Positions 27,248 to 46,424 of a stretch of 48,984 nt of DNA are shown here, piece after piece. Source of the DNA: Flavobacteriaceae bacterium (lineage in GTDB: Bacteria > Bacteroidota > Bacteroidia > Flavobacteriales > Flavobacteriaceae); NCBI GenBank assembly GCA_026988395.1, contig JALSLI010000122.1, forward strand, positions 1-48,984, written 5' to 3'. Both the position numbers and the translations under genes were made by a program. Each line of letters begins with the position of its first letter. The first letter of the stretch is position 1. The notes under the pieces are model-generated. The model had not been told where the DNA came from. It ran no database searches and saw only the letters and a list, made by a program, of their open reading frames with translations.

Positions 27248-28067
27248 CTTTCCCTTCATTTTTATTAGACAACAAGTTACTTGAATTATTCTGCAAGAGA
27301 ATTTTCATTTGTGAAATAGCAATATGATTGAGTTTTATGAGTCGCTCACTTTGTGATAAACCGTCATTGATAAAAACAGCGTTTAAGTTCTCTAAATTTG
27401 CCAAACAAACAAGTTGAGAGACATTGGCATAATCACGGATATTACCTTTCTCTTTAGGATTATCATCTCGCCATTGTTTTGCGGTTTTACCGAAAAGTGC
27501 CACATTTAGCACATCAGCTTCATTAGCATAAATAAAAGAAATCTGTTTGTTGCTTAGATTCTGTGGAATAAGGTTTTCTTTAATAGCATCTGTATGAATG
27601 CGGTAATTTATTTTGGCAAGATTGCGTTTAATATCCCAACCTAATTGCTTTTGCTCTTCATCTTTTAGGCGTTGGAATTCTTTAACCAAATATATTTTAA
27701 ATTCGGCACTTATCCACATTCCAAATTCAAAGGCAATGTCTTTGTGGGCATACGTACCACCATATCTTCCTGCTTTGGCGGTTAAGCCAATGGCATTTGT
27801 TTTAGCAACCCATTCTTTTACGCTTATTTTGTAGCTATTTAAACCTGCTTTACTTTTAATTATGGCGAATTCGCCATAATTAAAATCCGGGTTATGAATT
27901 TTCTCCCAAATACCAAGATACTCAACCGTATTTCTGTTTCTAAGCCAGTCTGAAATGAAAAAATCACCATCTTTCGATTTAAGCATATCTGTTAATGATA
28001 TGAAATCATCAGGAGTAATGGTAATGCTATTTTGTAAAACGGTTATTTTATTGTATTTCTTTTTCAT
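27234..28067 (-). CDS. KilA-N domain protein embedded in the type I RM operon
   Basis: ITPDDFISLTDMLKSKDGDFFISDWLRNRNTVEYLGIWEKIHNPDFN and GRYGGTYAHKDIAFEFGMWISAEFKIYLVKEFQRLK are KilA-N features. ATGA overlap with hsdM. Confidence 0.88.
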   Translation of the reverse strand: MKKKYNKITVLQNSITITPDDFISLTDMLKSKDGDFFISDWLRNRNTVEYLGIWEKIHNPDFNYGEFAIIKSKAGLNSYKISVKEWVAKTNAIGLTAKAGRYGGTYAHKDIAFEFGMWISAEFKIYLVKEFQRLKDEEQKQLGWDIKRNLAKINYRIHTDAIKENLIPQNLSNKQISFIYANEADVLNVALFGKTAKQWRDDNPKEKGNIRDYANVSQLVCLANLENLNAVFINDGLSQSERLIKLNHIAISQMKILLQNNSSNLLSNKNEGKDEKL

Positions 28068-29632
28068 AGCTCGTAGCCAAGAGTTTTAAAAGCATTCATC
28101 AGTTGCTCTTGCGATTCTTTCTCTTCTTGCAAAAGTTTTCTAAAATCTTTTTGAATTCGTTTCATTTCGGTATCAAAATCAATTCCGCTATCTCTATCTA
28201 CAAACTCAATGTATTTGCTTGGCACAAGCGAAAAATCGTTTTCTTCTACCTCTTCAAAACCAGCAGATTTGCAAAACTCGGGTACATCTTTGTAAGTAGT
28301 TTTATAATCTACCTGTTGCCAGTTGTGATAATTTTGTGCAACTTTTTCAATATCTTCAGTAGTAAGCTCAATATATTTCTTCTCATATTGGCTTCCCCAA
28401 CGTCTTAAATCCATAAACAAAATCTCTTTTTCTCTATTTCGATACTTCTTTTGTTTACCATTTATTTCAACAGTTCTCTCTTTTTTATTTTTATTGAGAA
28501 TCCAAAGCGTTACGCTAATATCGGTTGTGTAAAATGTATTTCTTGGAATTATGATAATGGCTTCAACCAAATTGTTTTCAATCAGTTTTCTACGTATTTT
28601 GTATTCCTCTCCGCCACCGGATAATGCACCATTGGCAAGTATAAAACCAGCAACTCCATTTTCAGAAAGCTTGGAAACCATATTGAGAATCCAACCGTAA
28701 TTGGCATTGCTTTTTGGCGGTACTTCATAACCCATCCATCTTGGGTCGTCCAATAGTTCGTTTTCGCCTCTCCAATCTTTTAGGTTAAAAGGTGGGTTAG
28801 CCATTATGTAATCGGCTTTTAAATCTTTGTGTTGGTCGTTTGCAAATGTATCTGCGTGTTTTTCTCCAAGGTTTGCCGAAATTCCTCTAACAGCAAGATT
28901 CATTTTTGCCAATTTGTAAGTTGTTGGCGTATTCTCTTGTCCGTATATGGAAACTTCCTTTTTTGTTCCTTGATGACTTTCAATAAACTTTATGGATTGC
29001 ACAAACATTCCGCCTGTTCCACAACAAGGGTCATAGATTATTCCTTTGTAGGGTTCTATTAATTCGGCAATCAGATTTACAATTGTTTTTGGTGTGTAGA
29101 ATTCGCCTTTACCTTTTCCGCTACTTTCCTTTAAGGCAAATTTTCCTAAAAAGTACTCATAAACTCTCCCAATAACATCTTGTCCGTCATCTTTTAGCGT
29201 GTCAATTTCGTTGATTGTGTCTAATAATGAAGCGAGTTTTGTTTTATCTAAGGCTAAACGAGAAAAGTAATTGTCGGGTAATGCTCCTTTTAGAGCAGGG
29301 TTGTTTTTCTCAATGGTATTTAAAGCAGTATCAATTTTTAAAGAAATGTCGTTTTGCTTGGCATTTTTTATAATGTAGCTCCAACGAGAAATTTCATCTA
29401 AGAAAAACACGTTTTTCATAGTGTAGAAATCTTTCATTTCCACATATTTCTCTTTGCCTTCTGTAATTAGTTCTTTTCTGCGTTCTTCAAATTTATCACT
29501 TGCAAATTTTAGGAAGATAAGTCCAAGTACAACGTGTTTGTATTCTGCCGGCTCTACCGAACCTCTCAATTTATCACACGATTGCCAAAGTGTTTCTTCT
29601 ATTGATTTTTGTTTTATTACCTTTTTTGCCAT
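28064..29632 (-). CDS. hsdM: Type I restriction-modification DNA methyltransferase, M subunit
   Basis: GKGEFYTPKTIVNLIAELIEPYKGIIYDPCCGTGGMFVQS and DYIMANPPFNLKDW (NPPF). Confidence 0.97.
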   Translation of the reverse strand: MAKKVIKQKSIEETLWQSCDKLRGSVEPAEYKHVVLGLIFLKFASDKFEERRKELITEGKEKYVEMKDFYTMKNVFFLDEISRWSYIIKNAKQNDISLKIDTALNTIEKNNPALKGALPDNYFSRLALDKTKLASLLDTINEIDTLKDDGQDVIGRVYEYFLGKFALKESSGKGKGEFYTPKTIVNLIAELIEPYKGIIYDPCCGTGGMFVQSIKFIESHQGTKKEVSIYGQENTPTTYKLAKMNLAVRGISANLGEKHADTFANDQHKDLKADYIMANPPFNLKDWRGENELLDDPRWMGYEVPPKSNANYGWILNMVSKLSENGVAGFILANGALSGGGEEYKIRRKLIENNLVEAIIIIPRNTFYTTDISVTLWILNKNKKERTVEINGKQKKYRNREKEILFMDLRRWGSQYEKKYIELTTEDIEKVAQNYHNWQQVDYKTTYKDVPEFCKSAGFEEVEENDFSLVPSKYIEFVDRDSGIDFDTEMKRIQKDFRKLLQEEKESQEQLMNAFKTLGYEL

Positions 29633-32948: not shown

Positions 32949-33296
32949 TCATTCTAAATCAAGAACAATCTTTATGTTTTCTTTAACTAATGGAATTAAA
33001 TCTAATGGTAAAACACCTAATTTTTGAACCAATCTTTTAATATCTATTGCACGAATTTGATCCATCATAATATCACTATCCTTTTTTAAATTTGCCATTC
33101 CTTTTTTAATATGAACTCTTAAAATTTCGGAATCTAACAATACATTTGTAGTAATAGGACAAATAATGACTGATGGATGAGGAATTTTATTTAATAAATT
33201 TGTTTGTACGATTAAAACAGGTCTTTTTTTTCCGGGCTCAGTGCCTATTTTAGGATTTAAATCTGCAATCCAAATTTCAAATTGTTTAGCTTTCAT
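32949..33296 (-). CDS. PemK/MazF-family toxin
   Basis: MKAKQFEIWIADLNPKIGTEPGKKRPVLIVQ, VIICPITTNV, DSDIMMDQIRAID. Confidence 0.92.
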   Translation of the reverse strand: MKAKQFEIWIADLNPKIGTEPGKKRPVLIVQTNLLNKIPHPSVIICPITTNVLLDSEILRVHIKKGMANLKKDSDIMMDQIRAIDIKRLVQKLGVLPLDLIPLVKENIKIVLDLE

Positions 33297-33516
33297 AATC
33301 CATTTTATCAAATTCTTTAAGTACCATTAAAGAATCTTTTTTTACTAAATTAGATTCAATTTTTAATTTTTTTTCAATCATTAATCGCTTTTGAAGCCTA
33401 TTATAATAATCAATAGCTTCATTAATATACCTATTTCTGGATTTTTTTACTTTTGAAAGTATTTTTTCGGTCTCTCCAAAAATAGAATCATCAATTTTTA
33501 AGGATACTGTTTTCAT
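33286..33516 (-). CDS. Antitoxin of MazEF-like pair
   Basis: Small ribbon-helix-helix-like protein overlapping the start of the MazF-like toxin on the same strand. Confidence 0.8.
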   Translation of the reverse strand: MKTVSLKIDDSIFGETEKILSKVKKSRNRYINEAIDYYNRLQKRLMIEKKLKIESNLVKKDSLMVLKEFDKMDYES

Positions 33517-34971: not shown

Positions 34972-35406
34972 TTAATTATACGGAATTTTTTCAACTCTAC
35001 GTTGGTGCCTTCCTCCTTCAAAATCTGTTTCTAAAAAAAGTTTTACAAAATTTAAAGCTTGGTATTGCGATACAAATCGTGCCGGAATACTCAAAACATT
35101 TGCATCATTATGTTTTCTTGCTAAAACTACCAATTCATTACACCAACATAATGCTGCTCGTACTTTTTGATGTTTGTTTGCTGTAATTTGAGCTCCATTA
35201 CCTGAACCACATAAAATAATCCCTAAATCTGCTTCTTTGTTTTCTACTGCTTTTGCCGCTAAATGTATTGTATCCGGATAATCCATACTCTCGGTAGTAT
35301 CTGTACCAAAATTAATAACTTTATATCCTTTTTCTTCTAAAAAAGCCATAATTTTGAATTTATATTCCGTTCCGGCGTGATCGTTAGCAATAGCAATTGT
35401 TTTCAT
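34972..35406 (-). CDS. rpiB: Ribose 5-phosphate isomerase B
   Basis: IANDHAGTEYKFKI, GIILCGSGNGAQITANKHQKVRAALCWCNE, ARKHNDANVLSIPAR. Confidence 0.95.
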   Translation of the reverse strand: MKTIAIANDHAGTEYKFKIMAFLEEKGYKVINFGTDTTESMDYPDTIHLAAKAVENKEADLGIILCGSGNGAQITANKHQKVRAALCWCNELVVLARKHNDANVLSIPARFVSQYQALNFVKLFLETDFEGGRHQRRVEKIPYN

Positions 35407-36053
35407 TTTATAAATATTTTAGAAATTAATGAGTCAAAAATAATATATTTAAATGATAGATACTCATTTTATAAGGCTTATTAACACAAAAAAAACGGAA
35501 TGTTAATAGTTGTTTATAAATAATTGTTTTTTAAATAGTTATATATAATAAAAATTGTTAATTCTTTTAAACTATATTTAGATAAGTAAATTTGGAAAAA
35601 CAAAAAAATTTTACAATACAAACCAAAAAGGATATAAAACAAAATTTTATATTAATTTTTTAGAACAAGATGTTAACAAAAAATGAAGGAATTATTAAGA
35701 AAAGAAAATAAAAAGTTATGCAAAAAAATAGTGAATAGAGGTTATTAACAAATTGTGAATAGCTACATGGAAATTTGTATTAATCAGTTCTTTAAAATAT
35801 GAATAACTTGTTAATTGTTTTTAATAAATGAAAAATCCAAATTAAAACCATAAATTTTACAGTACAAATTAACAAACAATAATAAACATCATTTCTTTTT
35901 TAAAATTTTAAAATAAAAATTAATTATATGTATATATGTTGATAACTTAAATATTAAAATCAATTCTATTTAACTTTGTGTATCTTTGCATATGTTTAAA
36001 TCAAATAGAAAATACTTCCTTAAAATGATTTAAAAAATAATAAGAACAATAAA
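35407..36053. other. Candidate replication origin (oriC), hypothetical
   Basis: 647-bp very AT-rich divergent intergenic region. Motifs: TTATTAACA at 35478-35486 and 35742-35750, TGTTAATAG at 35501-35509, TGTTAACAA at 35671-35679, TGTGAATAG at 35754-35762, TGTTGATAA at 35937-35945. parS cluster about 8 kb away. Confidence 0.5.
35981..35988 (+). promoter_or_regulatory. Bacteroidetes-type -7 element upstream of rnr
   Basis: TATCTTTG matches TAnnTTTG. No convincing -33 element was seen. Confidence 0.4.
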
Positions 36054-38276
36054 ATGAGTAAAAAGAAAAAAAAGATATTTAAAAAGAAGGGAAACGTAAT
36101 TAAAAACTTAACCAAAAATATTTTAAAATTTTTAGAGCAGAATGCCAAACAAAGTTTTAATTACAAACAGATAGCATCTAAATTAGACATAAATGATGCT
36201 AACGGAAAAGATCAAATTATAAAAAAATTAGCCGAACTTTCTGTATTAGATAAGATTAAAGAAATTACACCCGGAAAGTTTCAGTTTATAGAATTTAAAA
36301 AATACCATTACGGTAAAATTGATATTAATTTAAGTGGAAACGGTTTTGTTATCTGTGATGATTTAGAAAAAGATATTTATATTCCTAAAAGAAATCTTAA
36401 TCACGCATTAAACGGTGATGAAGTTAAAGTATATATTTATCATCGAAAATCTAACGGTAAAACCGAAGGTGAAGTAATTGAAATTATTAAAAGAGCTAAA
36501 GATAAATTTGTTGGTGTATTAGAACTCAGTAAAAACTTCGGTTTTGTAGTTTGTGATGATCCAAAAATGTATGTCGATATATTTGTGGCTAAAAAGAAAT
36601 TACACGAAGCACAACACGGTGATAAAGTAATTGTTAAAATTATAGATTGGCCTGAAAATTCTGAAAAACCTTTTGGTGAAATAACCACAATTTTAGGAAA
36701 ACCCGGAGATCATGATACCGAAATACATTCCATCTTAGCAGAATATGATTTACCAAATCAATTTCCGGCTAGGGTAGAAGATGAAGCTGAGAAATTACCA
36801 ATTGAAATTACTGCCGATGAAATTTCAAAAAGACGCGATTTTAGAAAAGAATTAACCTTTACCATCGATCCTATTACAGCAAAAGATTTTGATGATGCAC
36901 TTTCTTTTAAAGAATTGCCTAACGGAAATTATGAAATTGGTATTCATATTGCAGATGTATCACATTACGTACAAGAAAATACTATCTTAGATGATGAAGC
37001 TTATAATCGAGCAACATCGGTTTATTTGGTAGATAGAGTAGTGCCAATGTTACCCGAAGTTTTGTCTAATAATGTTTGTTCTTTACGACCTAATGAAGAA
37101 AAATTAACTTTTTCGGCAGTTTTTGAAATCGATAAAAACGCTAATGTTATTAAACAATGGTTCGGAAGAACGGTAATTTATTCTGATGCTCGTTTTGCTT
37201 ATGAAGAAGCTCAAGTTATAATTGAAAATAATCCCGATAAAATTGCTCAGAAATTAACAATTCCAGCTGGAATTTCCTTAACAGAAAAGCAATATGATAT
37301 GCCAAAAGAAATAGCACAAGCTATTTTAACAATGGATAAATTAGCAAAAATTTTGCGTAAAGAACGTATGGAAGCCGGAGCTTTGGCATTCGATAAAGTT
37401 GAAGTGCGTTTCGAGTTGGATGACCATGCAAATCCTGTTGGCGTTTATTTTAAAGAATCAAAAGATGCTAATAAATTAATTGAAGAATTTATGCTCTTGG
37501 CTAATCGTAAAGTAGCCGAATATATTGGTAAAAATAAACTTGGTTTACCAACAAATAAAACATTTGTCTATCGTGTTCATGATAAACCTGATATGGCAAA
37601 AGTTGAAGATTTACAACGTATTGCCAAAAATTTAGGATATGAATTACGTATCGATTCTGTTGAAAATTTAACCAAATCACTTAACAAACTTTTACAAGAT
37701 GTAAAAGGAAAACCCGAGCAAAATATTATTGAAACTCTGGCAATCCGTACCATGAGTAAAGCCAAATATACTACCGAAAATATTGGTCATTACGGTTTGG
37801 CATTTGATTATTATACACATTTTACATCGCCAATTAGAAGATATCCGGATGTGATGGTACATCGTTTGTTACAACATTACCTTAACGGAGGAAAATCACC
37901 TGATAAAACTATTTACGAAGAAAAATGTGAGCATAGTACCGAACGCGAAATTTTAGCAACTAAAGCAGAACGAGATTCTATTAAATACATGCAAGTTAAG
38001 TATATGGAAGATCACCAAAATAAAATGTTTAAAGGCGTGATTACCGGTGTAACCGAATGGGGAATTTATGTAGAAATTATCGAAAATAAATGTGAAGGAA
38101 TGGTGCGTGTACGCGATATCCAAGATGACTTTTATACTTTTGATGAAAAACAATATGCACTTGTAGGTCAGGCAAATGGAAATAAATACACGCTTGGTGA
38201 TGAAATAATGGTAAAAGTAAAACGTACAGATTTAGAACGTAAACAAATGGATTTTTTAATTGTAGAACATTTATAA
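36054..38276 (+). CDS. rnr: Ribonuclease R
   Basis: TIDPITAKDFDDALSF, IGIHIADVSHYV, YTHFTSPIRRYPDVMVHRLLQHYL, S1-like C-terminus (FKGVITGVTEWGIYVEI). Confidence 0.97.
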   Translation: MSKKKKKIFKKKGNVIKNLTKNILKFLEQNAKQSFNYKQIASKLDINDANGKDQIIKKLAELSVLDKIKEITPGKFQFIEFKKYHYGKIDINLSGNGFVICDDLEKDIYIPKRNLNHALNGDEVKVYIYHRKSNGKTEGEVIEIIKRAKDKFVGVLELSKNFGFVVCDDPKMYVDIFVAKKKLHEAQHGDKVIVKIIDWPENSEKPFGEITTILGKPGDHDTEIHSILAEYDLPNQFPARVEDEAEKLPIEITADEISKRRDFRKELTFTIDPITAKDFDDALSFKELPNGNYEIGIHIADVSHYVQENTILDDEAYNRATSVYLVDRVVPMLPEVLSNNVCSLRPNEEKLTFSAVFEIDKNANVIKQWFGRTVIYSDARFAYEEAQVIIENNPDKIAQKLTIPAGISLTEKQYDMPKEIAQAILTMDKLAKILRKERMEAGALAFDKVEVRFELDDHANPVGVYFKESKDANKLIEEFMLLANRKVAEYIGKNKLGLPTNKTFVYRVHDKPDMAKVEDLQRIAKNLGYELRIDSVENLTKSLNKLLQDVKGKPEQNIIETLAIRTMSKAKYTTENIGHYGLAFDYYTHFTSPIRRYPDVMVHRLLQHYLNGGKSPDKTIYEEKCEHSTEREILATKAERDSIKYMQVKYMEDHQNKMFKGVITGVTEWGIYVEIIENKCEGMVRVRDIQDDFYTFDEKQYALVGQANGNKYTLGDEIMVKVKRTDLERKQMDFLIVEHL

Positions 38277-43118: not shown

Positions 43119-43535
43119 ATGATAACTTTTAATTACGAAACCGATTTTACATTAGATAAAAGTAGTGAAATTTCAGAGTGGATTTTAAATACGATTTCCC
43201 TTGAAAAATTTTCTTTAGGAGAATTAAATTATATTTTTTGTGATGATACATATCTTCTGGATATTAATAAAAAATATCTAAATCACAATACTTTTACCGA
43301 TATTATAAGTTTTGATTATACTTTAGGAAAACAAATAAATGGTGATATTTATATTTCTATCGATAGAATTAAAGAGAATTCCAAACTCTATAACACTTCT
43401 TTTAACAATGAATTATTACGTGTTATGATTCACGGCGTTTTACACTATTTAGGGTATAAAGATAAAACGGATGCTGACAAAAAAATAATGCGTTCAAAAG
43501 AGGATTATTACTTATCTTTGCAGAATATTTATTAA
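43119..43535 (+). CDS. ybeY: Endoribonuclease YbeY (rRNA maturation)
   Basis: LNHNTFTDIISFDY and HGVLHYLGYKDKTDADKKIMRSKED (HGxLHxxGYDH-type metal site). Confidence 0.95.
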   Translation: MITFNYETDFTLDKSSEISEWILNTISLEKFSLGELNYIFCDDTYLLDINKKYLNHNTFTDIISFDYTLGKQINGDIYISIDRIKENSKLYNTSFNNELLRVMIHGVLHYLGYKDKTDADKKIMRSKEDYYLSLQNIY

Positions 43536-43551
43536 TGTTTCACGTGAAACA
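43536..43551. promoter_or_regulatory. parS site 1
   Basis: TGTTTCACGTGAAACA, perfect 16-bp palindrome matching the ParB-binding consensus TGTTNCACGTGNAACA. Confidence 0.92.
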
Positions 43552-43581
43552 TTAAATAATCACATAACTAAAAATTAAAAT

Positions 43582-43597
43582 TGTTCCACGTGGAACA
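43582..43597. promoter_or_regulatory. parS site 2
   Basis: TGTTCCACGTGGAACA, perfect 16-bp palindrome matching the parS consensus. Confidence 0.92.
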
Positions 43598-43608
43598 TAA
43601 TTTATAAG

Positions 43609-45486
43609 ATGAGTATATTTCAATCTAAATACGATGTTATTGTTGTAGGAGGTGGTCACGCAGGTTCTGAGGCTGCTGCTGCATCTGCAAACTTAGGTGC
43701 CAAAACATTACTAATTACTATGAGTTTGCAAAATATAGCACAAATGAGTTGTAATCCCGCAATGGGAGGTATTGCAAAAGGACAAATTGTTCGTGAAATT
43801 GATGCTTTAGGTGGTTATAGTGGCATTATCACAGATAAAACCGCTATCCAATTTAAGATGCTTAATAAATCTAAAGGCCCTGCAATGTGGAGTCCTAGAG
43901 CTCAAAGTGATCGTATGCAATTTGCCGCAGCTTGGCGTTGGCAATTAGAAAACATTCCTAATTTGGATATGTATCAAGATAGTGTTACCGGTTTATTATT
44001 TGAAGGAGATACTATTATTGGTGTTAAAACAAGTTTAGGATTAAAAATATATTCTAAAACTGTTATTCTAACAGCCGGAACTTTTTTAAACGGACTCATT
44101 CATATTGGTGAAAAAACTTTCGGTGGAGGAAGGGCAGGAGAAAGTGCATCAAAAGGGATTACAGAAGATTTAGTTGCTATGGGTTTTGAATCCGGACGTA
44201 TGAAAACGGGAACACCACCACGTGTAGATGCTAGATCTTTAGATTTTTCTAAAATGATTGAACAACCTGGAGATGAAAATCCGCAAAAATTTTCTTTTTC
44301 TTCAGAAACACAACCGTTGCAAAAACAAAAATCTTGTTATATGACCTATACAAGTACTGAAGTTCATGATTTATTGCGTGAAGGTTTTGATCGTTCACCA
44401 ATGTTTACAGGTAGAATTCAAAGTATTGGTCCAAGATATTGTCCTAGTATTGAAGATAAAATTGATCGCTTTACTACTAAAGAAAGACATCAAATGTTTA
44501 TTGAACCTGAAGGTTGGAAAACTAATGAAATTTATGTTAATGGATTTTCCACTTCTTTACCCGAAGATATACAGGCAAGTGCTCTACGAAAAGTTTCCGG
44601 TTTTGAAAATGTAAAATTTTTACGTTTTGGTTATGCAATTGAATATGATTATTTTCCACCAACGCAATTAAAGTATTCATTAGAAACAAAATTAATAAAA
44701 AATCTTTTTTTTGCAGGGCAAATAAATGGTACAACCGGTTATGAAGAAGCTGCGGCACAAGGAATAATAGCCGGAATTAATGCGGCACATAAAACACAAG
44801 AAAAAGATGCTTTTATTTTAAATAGAAACGAGGCTTATATTGGTGTTCTTATAGATGATTTAATTACAAAAGGTACTGATGAACCTTATCGTATGTTTAC
44901 TTCCAGAGCAGAATATCGTACTTTATTAAGACAGGATAATGCCGATATTAGATTAACACCTAAATCTTATAATATTGGTTTAGCATCTGAGGAACGAATG
45001 AAGAGAGTAGAAGAGAAGGTGTATAAAACGAAGTTATTTGTAGATTTCTTAAAGAAAACGAGTATTAAAGCAGAAGATATAAATCCTATTTTAGAATCAA
45101 AAAATTCTGCTTTGGTAAATCAATCTATGAAAATGTTTAAGTTTGCTACCAGACCACAATTAAACTTTAATGATGTTCGTGAATTTCCATTAGTTAAAGA
45201 TTTTATTGAAGAAAATAATATAGATCAAGATATTATAGAACAAACGGAAATTCAAGTAAAATATTCGGGTTATATAGAAAAAGAATTAAGTAATGTTAAG
45301 AAATTAGCTCGCTTAGAGACTGTTAAGATACCAGCTGATTTTAATTATGATATAGTTTCTTCCATAAGTACCGAAGCAAAACAAAAGCTCACTAAAATAA
45401 AACCGGAAACCATTGCACAAGCTAGTAGAATATCCGGAGTTTCTCCTAGTGATATTTCCATATTACTAGTAAATTTAGGTGTTTAA
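43609..45486 (+). CDS. mnmG: tRNA uridine-5-carboxymethylaminomethyl modification enzyme MnmG (GidA)
   Basis: YDVIVVGGGHAGSEAAAASANLGAKTLLIT, CNPAMGGIAKGQIVREIDALGG, KTGTPPRVD, TGYEEAAAQG. Confidence 0.98.
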   Translation: MSIFQSKYDVIVVGGGHAGSEAAAASANLGAKTLLITMSLQNIAQMSCNPAMGGIAKGQIVREIDALGGYSGIITDKTAIQFKMLNKSKGPAMWSPRAQSDRMQFAAAWRWQLENIPNLDMYQDSVTGLLFEGDTIIGVKTSLGLKIYSKTVILTAGTFLNGLIHIGEKTFGGGRAGESASKGITEDLVAMGFESGRMKTGTPPRVDARSLDFSKMIEQPGDENPQKFSFSSETQPLQKQKSCYMTYTSTEVHDLLREGFDRSPMFTGRIQSIGPRYCPSIEDKIDRFTTKERHQMFIEPEGWKTNEIYVNGFSTSLPEDIQASALRKVSGFENVKFLRFGYAIEYDYFPPTQLKYSLETKLIKNLFFAGQINGTTGYEEAAAQGIIAGINAAHKTQEKDAFILNRNEAYIGVLIDDLITKGTDEPYRMFTSRAEYRTLLRQDNADIRLTPKSYNIGLASEERMKRVEEKVYKTKLFVDFLKKTSIKAEDINPILESKNSALVNQSMKMFKFATRPQLNFNDVREFPLVKDFIEENNIDQDIIEQTEIQVKYSGYIEKELSNVKKLARLETVKIPADFNYDIVSSISTEAKQKLTKIKPETIAQASRISGVSPSDISILLVNLGV

Positions 45487-45506
45487 TTTAAAGAATTACT
45501 TTAATA

Positions 45507-45522
45507 TGTTTCACGTGAAACA
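45507..45522. promoter_or_regulatory. parS site 3
   Basis: TGTTTCACGTGAAACA between mnmG and the methyltransferase gene. Confidence 0.92.
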
Positions 45523-45536
45523 TTAAGCTGTTATTT

Positions 45537-46424
45537 ATGAATATAAAATCACCAATTAATCCTGATATTGATTTAGAAAATTTTTTAACTTGTAAAGATT
45601 ATACTGTTTCACGTGAAACATTTGATTTGTTATGGGATAAAAAAGCAGATTTTTTAATAACAGCTCCGCAACCAAAAATAGAAGAGTTATCAAAATATTA
45701 CGATAGTGAAGATTATATTTCGCATACCGATGCTTCAAAATCGGTTATGGATAAGTTATACCAAATAGCCAAAAAATATGCTATTTCTAATAAAATTAAT
45801 CTTGTTAAAAATGTTGCCTTAACAAATAAGTCTAAAATAAAACTTTTAGATGTAGGTTGTGGTACCGGAGATTTTTTACACGCTTGTAATAAAAAAGGAA
45901 TTTTAGTTACGGGAATAGAACCAAATGAAAAGGCAAGGAAATTAGCTATAAATAAAATTCCGGAAATTAAAATTTTAGATTCTATTTTTAATTCTACCGA
46001 AAAATTTGATGTAATAACAATGTGGCATGTTTTAGAACACGTACCTAATTTAGAGAAGTATATTATAAAATTAAAGTTCTTATTATCAGAAAAGGGTGTT
46101 TTAATTATTGCTGTTCCTAATTTTAAAAGTTACGATGCAAAACATTATAAAGAGTTTTGGGCTGCTTATGATGTACCAAGACATTTATGGCATTTTTCAA
46201 AAAAAGCAATAATCGACTTATTTAGTAAAATTGATTTACACTTACAAAAAACCTTACCAATGCGATTAGATTCTTTTTATGTTAGTTTGTTATCTGAAAA
46301 ATATAAGACAGGTAAGTCTAATTTTATAAAAGCATTTTTTATTGGTTTTCTATCTAATTTTAAAGGATTTTTTACAAAAGAATATTCTTCGCATATTTAT
46401 ATACTTAAAAACAAGAAAATTTAA
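45537..46424 (+). CDS. Class I SAM-dependent methyltransferase
   Basis: KLLDVGCGTGDFLHACNKKGILVTGIEPNEKARKLA and DVITMWHVLEHVPNLEKYI. Confidence 0.9.
   Translation: MNIKSPINPDIDLENFLTCKDYTVSRETFDLLWDKKADFLITAPQPKIEELSKYYDSEDYISHTDASKSVMDKLYQIAKKYAISNKINLVKNVALTNKSKIKLLDVGCGTGDFLHACNKKGILVTGIEPNEKARKLAINKIPEIKILDSIFNSTEKFDVITMWHVLEHVPNLEKYIIKLKFLLSEKGVLIIAVPNFKSYDAKHYKEFWAAYDVPRHLWHFSKKAIIDLFSKIDLHLQKTLPMRLDSFYVSLLSEKYKTGKSNFIKAFFIGFLSNFKGFFTKEYSSHIYILKNKKI
45605..45620. promoter_or_regulatory. parS site 4, inside the methyltransferase CDS
   Basis: TGTTTCACGTGAAACA, contributing to the in-frame codons for TVSRETF. Confidence 0.9.

Follow-up and report, generated by a model that had tools for sequence, protein, structure and literature searches.

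What is the role of four copies of one palindrome gathered around a single tRNA-modification gene? The window analysed here (the whole stretch of 48,984 nucleotides, contig JALSLI010000122.1) belongs to a Flavobacteriaceae bacterium assembly (GCA_026988395.1) of 200 contigs and 2,374,159 bases that is 84% complete. An exact-match scan resolved four perfect palindromes of the form TGTTNCACGTGNAACA, all inside 2.1 kb around mnmG and at the very positions given in an initial annotation, which had taken them for parS, the loading sites of ParB (Table 1). We assign a probability of about 95% to the reading that they form the parS centromere of the chromosome, as part of a ParABS system.

Table 1. 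Features of the window that bear on the parS cluster and the candidate origin
Feature	Position	Strand	Description and basis
rpiB	34972..35406	-	Left flank of candidate oriC; NCBIfam ribose-5-phosphate isomerase B
Candidate oriC	35407..36053	.	Gap of 16% GC from which rpiB (-) and rnr (+) diverge; GC skew has a local minimum at 35373; TATTAACA occurs three times; homologous gap in relatives with the same repeats
rnr	36054..38276	+	Ribonuclease R; bounds candidate oriC on the right; Pfam RNB, E=1.3e-112
ybeY	43119..43535	+	Upstream neighbour of mnmG; Pfam YbeY; same neighbour in most relatives' loci
parS site 1	43536..43551	.	TGTTTCACGTGAAACA; directly 3' of the ybeY stop; exact match
parS site 2	43582..43597	.	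TGTTCCACGTGGAACA; ends 11 bases 5' of the mnmG ATG; exact match
mnmG (gidA)	43609..45486	+	tRNA-modification enzyme with sites on both flanks; Pfam GIDA, E=1.2e-162
parS site 3	45507..45522	.	TGTTTCACGTGAAACA; in the gap downstream of mnmG; exact match
Class I methyltransferase ORF	45537..46424	+	Pfam Methyltransf_23; coding parS in N-terminal D-x-T-V-S-x-E-x-F motif
parS site 4	45605..45620	.	TGTTTCACGTGAAACA; coding, T-V-S-R-E-T in the methyltransferase ORF; exact match

Four palindromes at the mnmG locus

No fifth palindrome was found in the window, even with up to two mismatches, so the earlier statement that there are no further copies holds to that depth. At two mismatches 0.17 palindromes would be expected in the window by chance and none of 100 shuffles reached four, in agreement with the claim that chance clustering is very unlikely. 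A scan of the whole genome for the 16-mer, proposed as a check in the initial annotation, returned the four window sites as the only copies without a mismatch in the assembly (2.37 Mb); the sites are thus few and clustered, with no genome-wide scatter. The next-best matches are two scattered ones with one mismatch each, and a reversed-pattern control gave five matches at up to two mismatches.

Sites 1 and 2 are separated by 30 bases, as had been described. Both lie in the mnmG leader, within the 73 bases that separate the ybeY stop (43535) from the mnmG ATG (43609).

Site 4, a point absent from the initial annotation, lies inside the methyltransferase ORF and not between genes. Motif comparison showed that the same coding site is shared by two genomes of the same genus (G302, G303) and Lutimonas halocynthiae (L047). 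Synonymous differences at the coding site affect only the two outermost bases, which vary in intergenic copies too, and the methyltransferases of most other relatives have a different residue replacing the R and T of T-V-S-R-E-T. Four genomes agree at all four inner codons of site 4, where the background rate of identity is 52/136 (about 0.02 in the codon test). Site 4 looks like a parS that arose within a gene, for which the codons by themselves give modest, suggestive statistical support.

Conservation of the sites and of their position

Of 301 genomes in the family, 263 have the exact 16-mer at one to four copies, usually one to three, the source genome having four; the reversed-pattern control was zero in all but one of the 301. 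Among family genomes at least 97% complete that lack the exact 16-mer, 16 of 17 carry its 14-bp core; most of them have two cores some 1.9 kb from each other, a spacing equal to the length of mnmG. We then counted the core within 600 bp of mnmG in Flavobacteriales, where 80 loci were named and 78 could be scored, giving 79 with the window. An upstream core occurs in 78/79 loci, a downstream core in 76/79 and cores on both flanks in 76/79. Across the phylum, the core was present in 57 of 60 genomes, with sites at mnmG in 30 of the 31 for which positions were listed; the exception (G360) has its sites on another contig. The conservation in related flavobacterial genomes that the initial annotation suggested examining is therefore borne out, the location of the sites being shared throughout Flavobacteriales and the phylum.

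When the left half-site GTTYCAC falls within 200 bp of mnmG, the right half completes it in about 95% of 181 cases, compared to 0 of 126 half-sites away from mnmG, and the palindrome centre CACGTG is nearly invariant among copies. Altered centres (CACATG, CACAAG, CATGTG) were observed in L049, L051, L052 (Tenacibaculum), L086 and L098, and ParB specificity may have shifted in such lineages. The parS core was not found near mnmG in a Capnocytophaga metagenome-assembled genome (L112), nor anywhere in the genome G124; these two are possible parS losses.

Copy number is higher in some Flavobacterium species (L085, L074 and L066), which have 6–12 parS-like copies upstream of mnmG. The copies in L085 lie about 60–1200 bases upstream of the gene, several of them with a CACATG centre and a spacing of about 117 bp, resembling a tandem repeat. 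Such arrays of up to a dozen copies, with their repeat-like spacing in L085, would fit palindromes that arose by chance or from a repeat and have no function. Set against this origin, which we consider a negligible prospect, are the 0.17 copies expected in the window and the same-place conservation throughout the phylum.

Every palindrome could also fold as RNA, and the sites might then act as attenuator, terminator or stability hairpins around the mnmG transcript, a proposal to which the few Tenacibaculum and Polaribacter copies with altered centres and intact arms would be congenial. The pattern of substitution speaks against it: the CACGTG centre barely varies, although free variation would be expected of a loop, the pair at positions 5 and 12 is C-A in 35/171 copies, breaking the stem, and the other bases are invariant and not covarying. 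Among the copies compared, no compensatory stem changes that preserve pairing but alter GTTYCAC were seen, and one copy lies within coding sequence. On the strength of the near-invariant centre and the broken 5-12 pair we rejected the RNA element, which seems to us highly improbable.

Proximity to the likely origin, and separation from mnmG in G023

A centromere reading, as in the initial annotation, places the sites near oriC. In the fragmented source assembly, proximity was judged from the local skew minimum and synteny, and genome-wide skew was sampled in relatives. Cumulative G minus C in the window is lowest beside the gap between rpiB and rnr, about 7.5 kb from the parS cluster. Both the window and nine relatives show over-representation of TATTAACA in this gap; in G025 it occurs four times in 1.77 kb, versus about once per 20 kb elsewhere. 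Skew and synteny point to the rpiB-rnr gap as the likely oriC, and TATTAACA is suggestive of a lineage-specific variant of the DnaA box. Canonical DnaA boxes (TTATCCACA) are absent from the gap and show no enrichment in the window, and for this reason they form no part of the case for the origin. To the left of recA, the window also holds a minus-strand run with an HsdM-like type I restriction-modification gene (28064-29632, below the NCBIfam equivalog cut-off); a weak match to a MazF-like endoribonuclease (32949-33311, minus strand) adjoins a regulator-like gene near recA.

In the relatives, skew-switch fits were assessed by permutation. The complete G025 record begins inside the rpiB-rnr gap and its skew switches there, 16 kb from parS (p=0.016). 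The switch in the complete relatives G014 (p<0.001) and G021 (p=0.0005) falls roughly 20–85 kb from both the gap and the parS pair. The skew of G023 is too weak for origin placement (fit 0.96 vs a permutation mean of 0.85). Speaking against the reading, rnr and the parS sites are 68–195 kb apart in G306, G317 and G315, three complete genomes that are more distant. Origin proximity is thus supported by the skew switches of G014, G021 and G025 together with the candidate oriC in the window.

G023 distinguishes 'near the origin' from 'near mnmG'. Its mnmG is at 1277 kb and its three parS sites are at 997–999 kb, 280 kb away, where they lie 3 kb from rnr (992–994 kb) and beside a homologue of the methyltransferase. 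Since mnmG is distant and rnr close, the sites stayed with the origin-side genes upon separation, and parS appears to be tied to the origin region rather than to mnmG.

This arrangement bears on a different function, in which the palindromes are operators of an mnmG regulator, ParB or another protein, and have been conserved for controlling mnmG expression. In most loci site 2 or its equivalent does indeed precede the mnmG start by 0–60 bp, and ParB of P. aeruginosa represses genes adjoining the intergenic parS3 and parS4 (PMC7022226). However, the second site 3' of mnmG in 76/79 loci is an odd position for an operator, the G023 sites are not at mnmG at all, and in B. subtilis lacking Spo0J the parS-adjacent genes are unchanged (PMC7022226). 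A promoter-like TAnnTTTG near mnmG, counted in only 25 of 78 loci vs 8 in single shuffles, likewise speaks against an operator. G023 argues for a centromere over an mnmG operator, and against mnmG regulation as the conserved function, which we hold to be quite unlikely. As the initial annotation had suggested, ParB bound at the centromere could possibly still affect mnmG expression.

ParB, ParA and comparison with known systems

The consensus of parS reportedly goes back to a founding survey by Livny et al. in 2007. Absence of a parB gene from the genome would, as the initial annotation pointed out, speak against parS. Two models found no ParB in the source assembly, a result that stands for this 84% complete sequence and that we put down to an assembly gap. 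In the same-genus genome G226 the order is lepB-dapB-DUF5683-parB-parA (names except parB read from translations). One contig of the source assembly (C158) starts inside parA, at residue 203 of 260, and another (C67) starts inside dapB; these contigs break on either side of the expected position of parB, which would therefore fall in an unassembled gap. The ParA residues 1–203 at the edge of C158 are 83% identical to ParA of G226.

Of 48 relatives with a completeness of 90% or more, 47 have ParB. A single genome of 0.3 Mb (G319) has neither ParB nor parS sites. The closest solved structures to a same-genus ParB are Spo0J/ParB, and all 16 relatives' ParBs examined, three of them from the same genus, carry R173, N178, G201 and R204 (Caulobacter numbering), the combination of residues that recognises parS and not the Noc site (PMC7383237). 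In eight single-contig relatives (G014, G021, G023, G025, G306, G315, G317 and G321) parB is about 0.17–1.5 Mb from parS.

The 16-mer matches the parS consensus as used in the literature (PMC10197239). This match, the phylum-wide position and the presence of ParB in nearly all near-complete relatives uphold the earlier identification of the palindromes as parS. They share with the chromosomal parS of B. subtilis (Spo0J) and C. crescentus (ParB) the same 16-bp palindrome in few, clustered, origin-near copies, ParA and ParB in the genome family, and relatives' ParBs with the same DNA-reading residues. They differ in three respects. First, in relatives parAB is remote from the sites, in contrast to the textbook arrangement of parS beside parAB. 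Second, through most of the phylum the sites are anchored on both flanks of mnmG. Lastly, position 5/12 near mnmG is more often C-G than T-A. The binding site of Noc (NBS), the nucleoid occlusion paralogue of ParB, is also palindromic and is bound by a member of the same protein superfamily, although the NBS has adenine at position 1 and cytosine at position 6 where the sites here keep the parS bases, and Noc has Q173 and R201 where the relatives' ParBs have R173 and G201. The Noc/NBS reading was rejected on these grounds.

Within the phylum, GC skew and Hi-C place clustered consensus parS sites of the gut Bacteroidota Bacteroides caecimuris and Muribaculum intestinale at the origin (PMC10197239); the accessible text of that study does not tie them to mnmG, and the two species showed no known condensin homologue. 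Both parS and its origin-proximal clusters, including those of gut Bacteroidota, are already known (PMC10197239). Our search, with partial coverage of journals and with gidA covered by titles and abstracts, returned no literature linking parS with mnmG or gidA, and within that coverage we found no earlier description of phylum-wide mnmG anchoring.

Work on other organisms has established that ParB nucleates on parS and spreads, that it stimulates ParA and that it is a loader of SMC in many species (PMC7333895). We infer ParB binding, spreading and segregation in the source organism as follows. A ParB dimer would be expected on each palindrome, where ParB would load as a CTP clamp and then slide to flanking DNA. 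The resulting partition complex would cover mnmG, about 7.5–10 kb from the likely origin, and would be moved by ParA; the mnmG region would therefore be one of the earliest-segregating stretches of the new chromosome. A broader proposal is that Bacteroidota share one fixed centromere design, with parS bracketing mnmG near oriC and parAB up to 1.5 Mb away, in which the bracketing is itself functional, for example by enclosing mnmG in a ParB domain, whereby mnmG expression would follow the segregation of the origin; we offer this as speculation that is probably wrong.

Chromosome segregation in Bacteroidota is little studied. The large distance between parS and parAB shows that their usual linkage is dispensable, and the mnmG-flanking sites are a defined target for ParB ChIP-seq. 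Lying beside one gene phylum-wide, parS provides a landmark of the origin region for genomes and metagenome bins.
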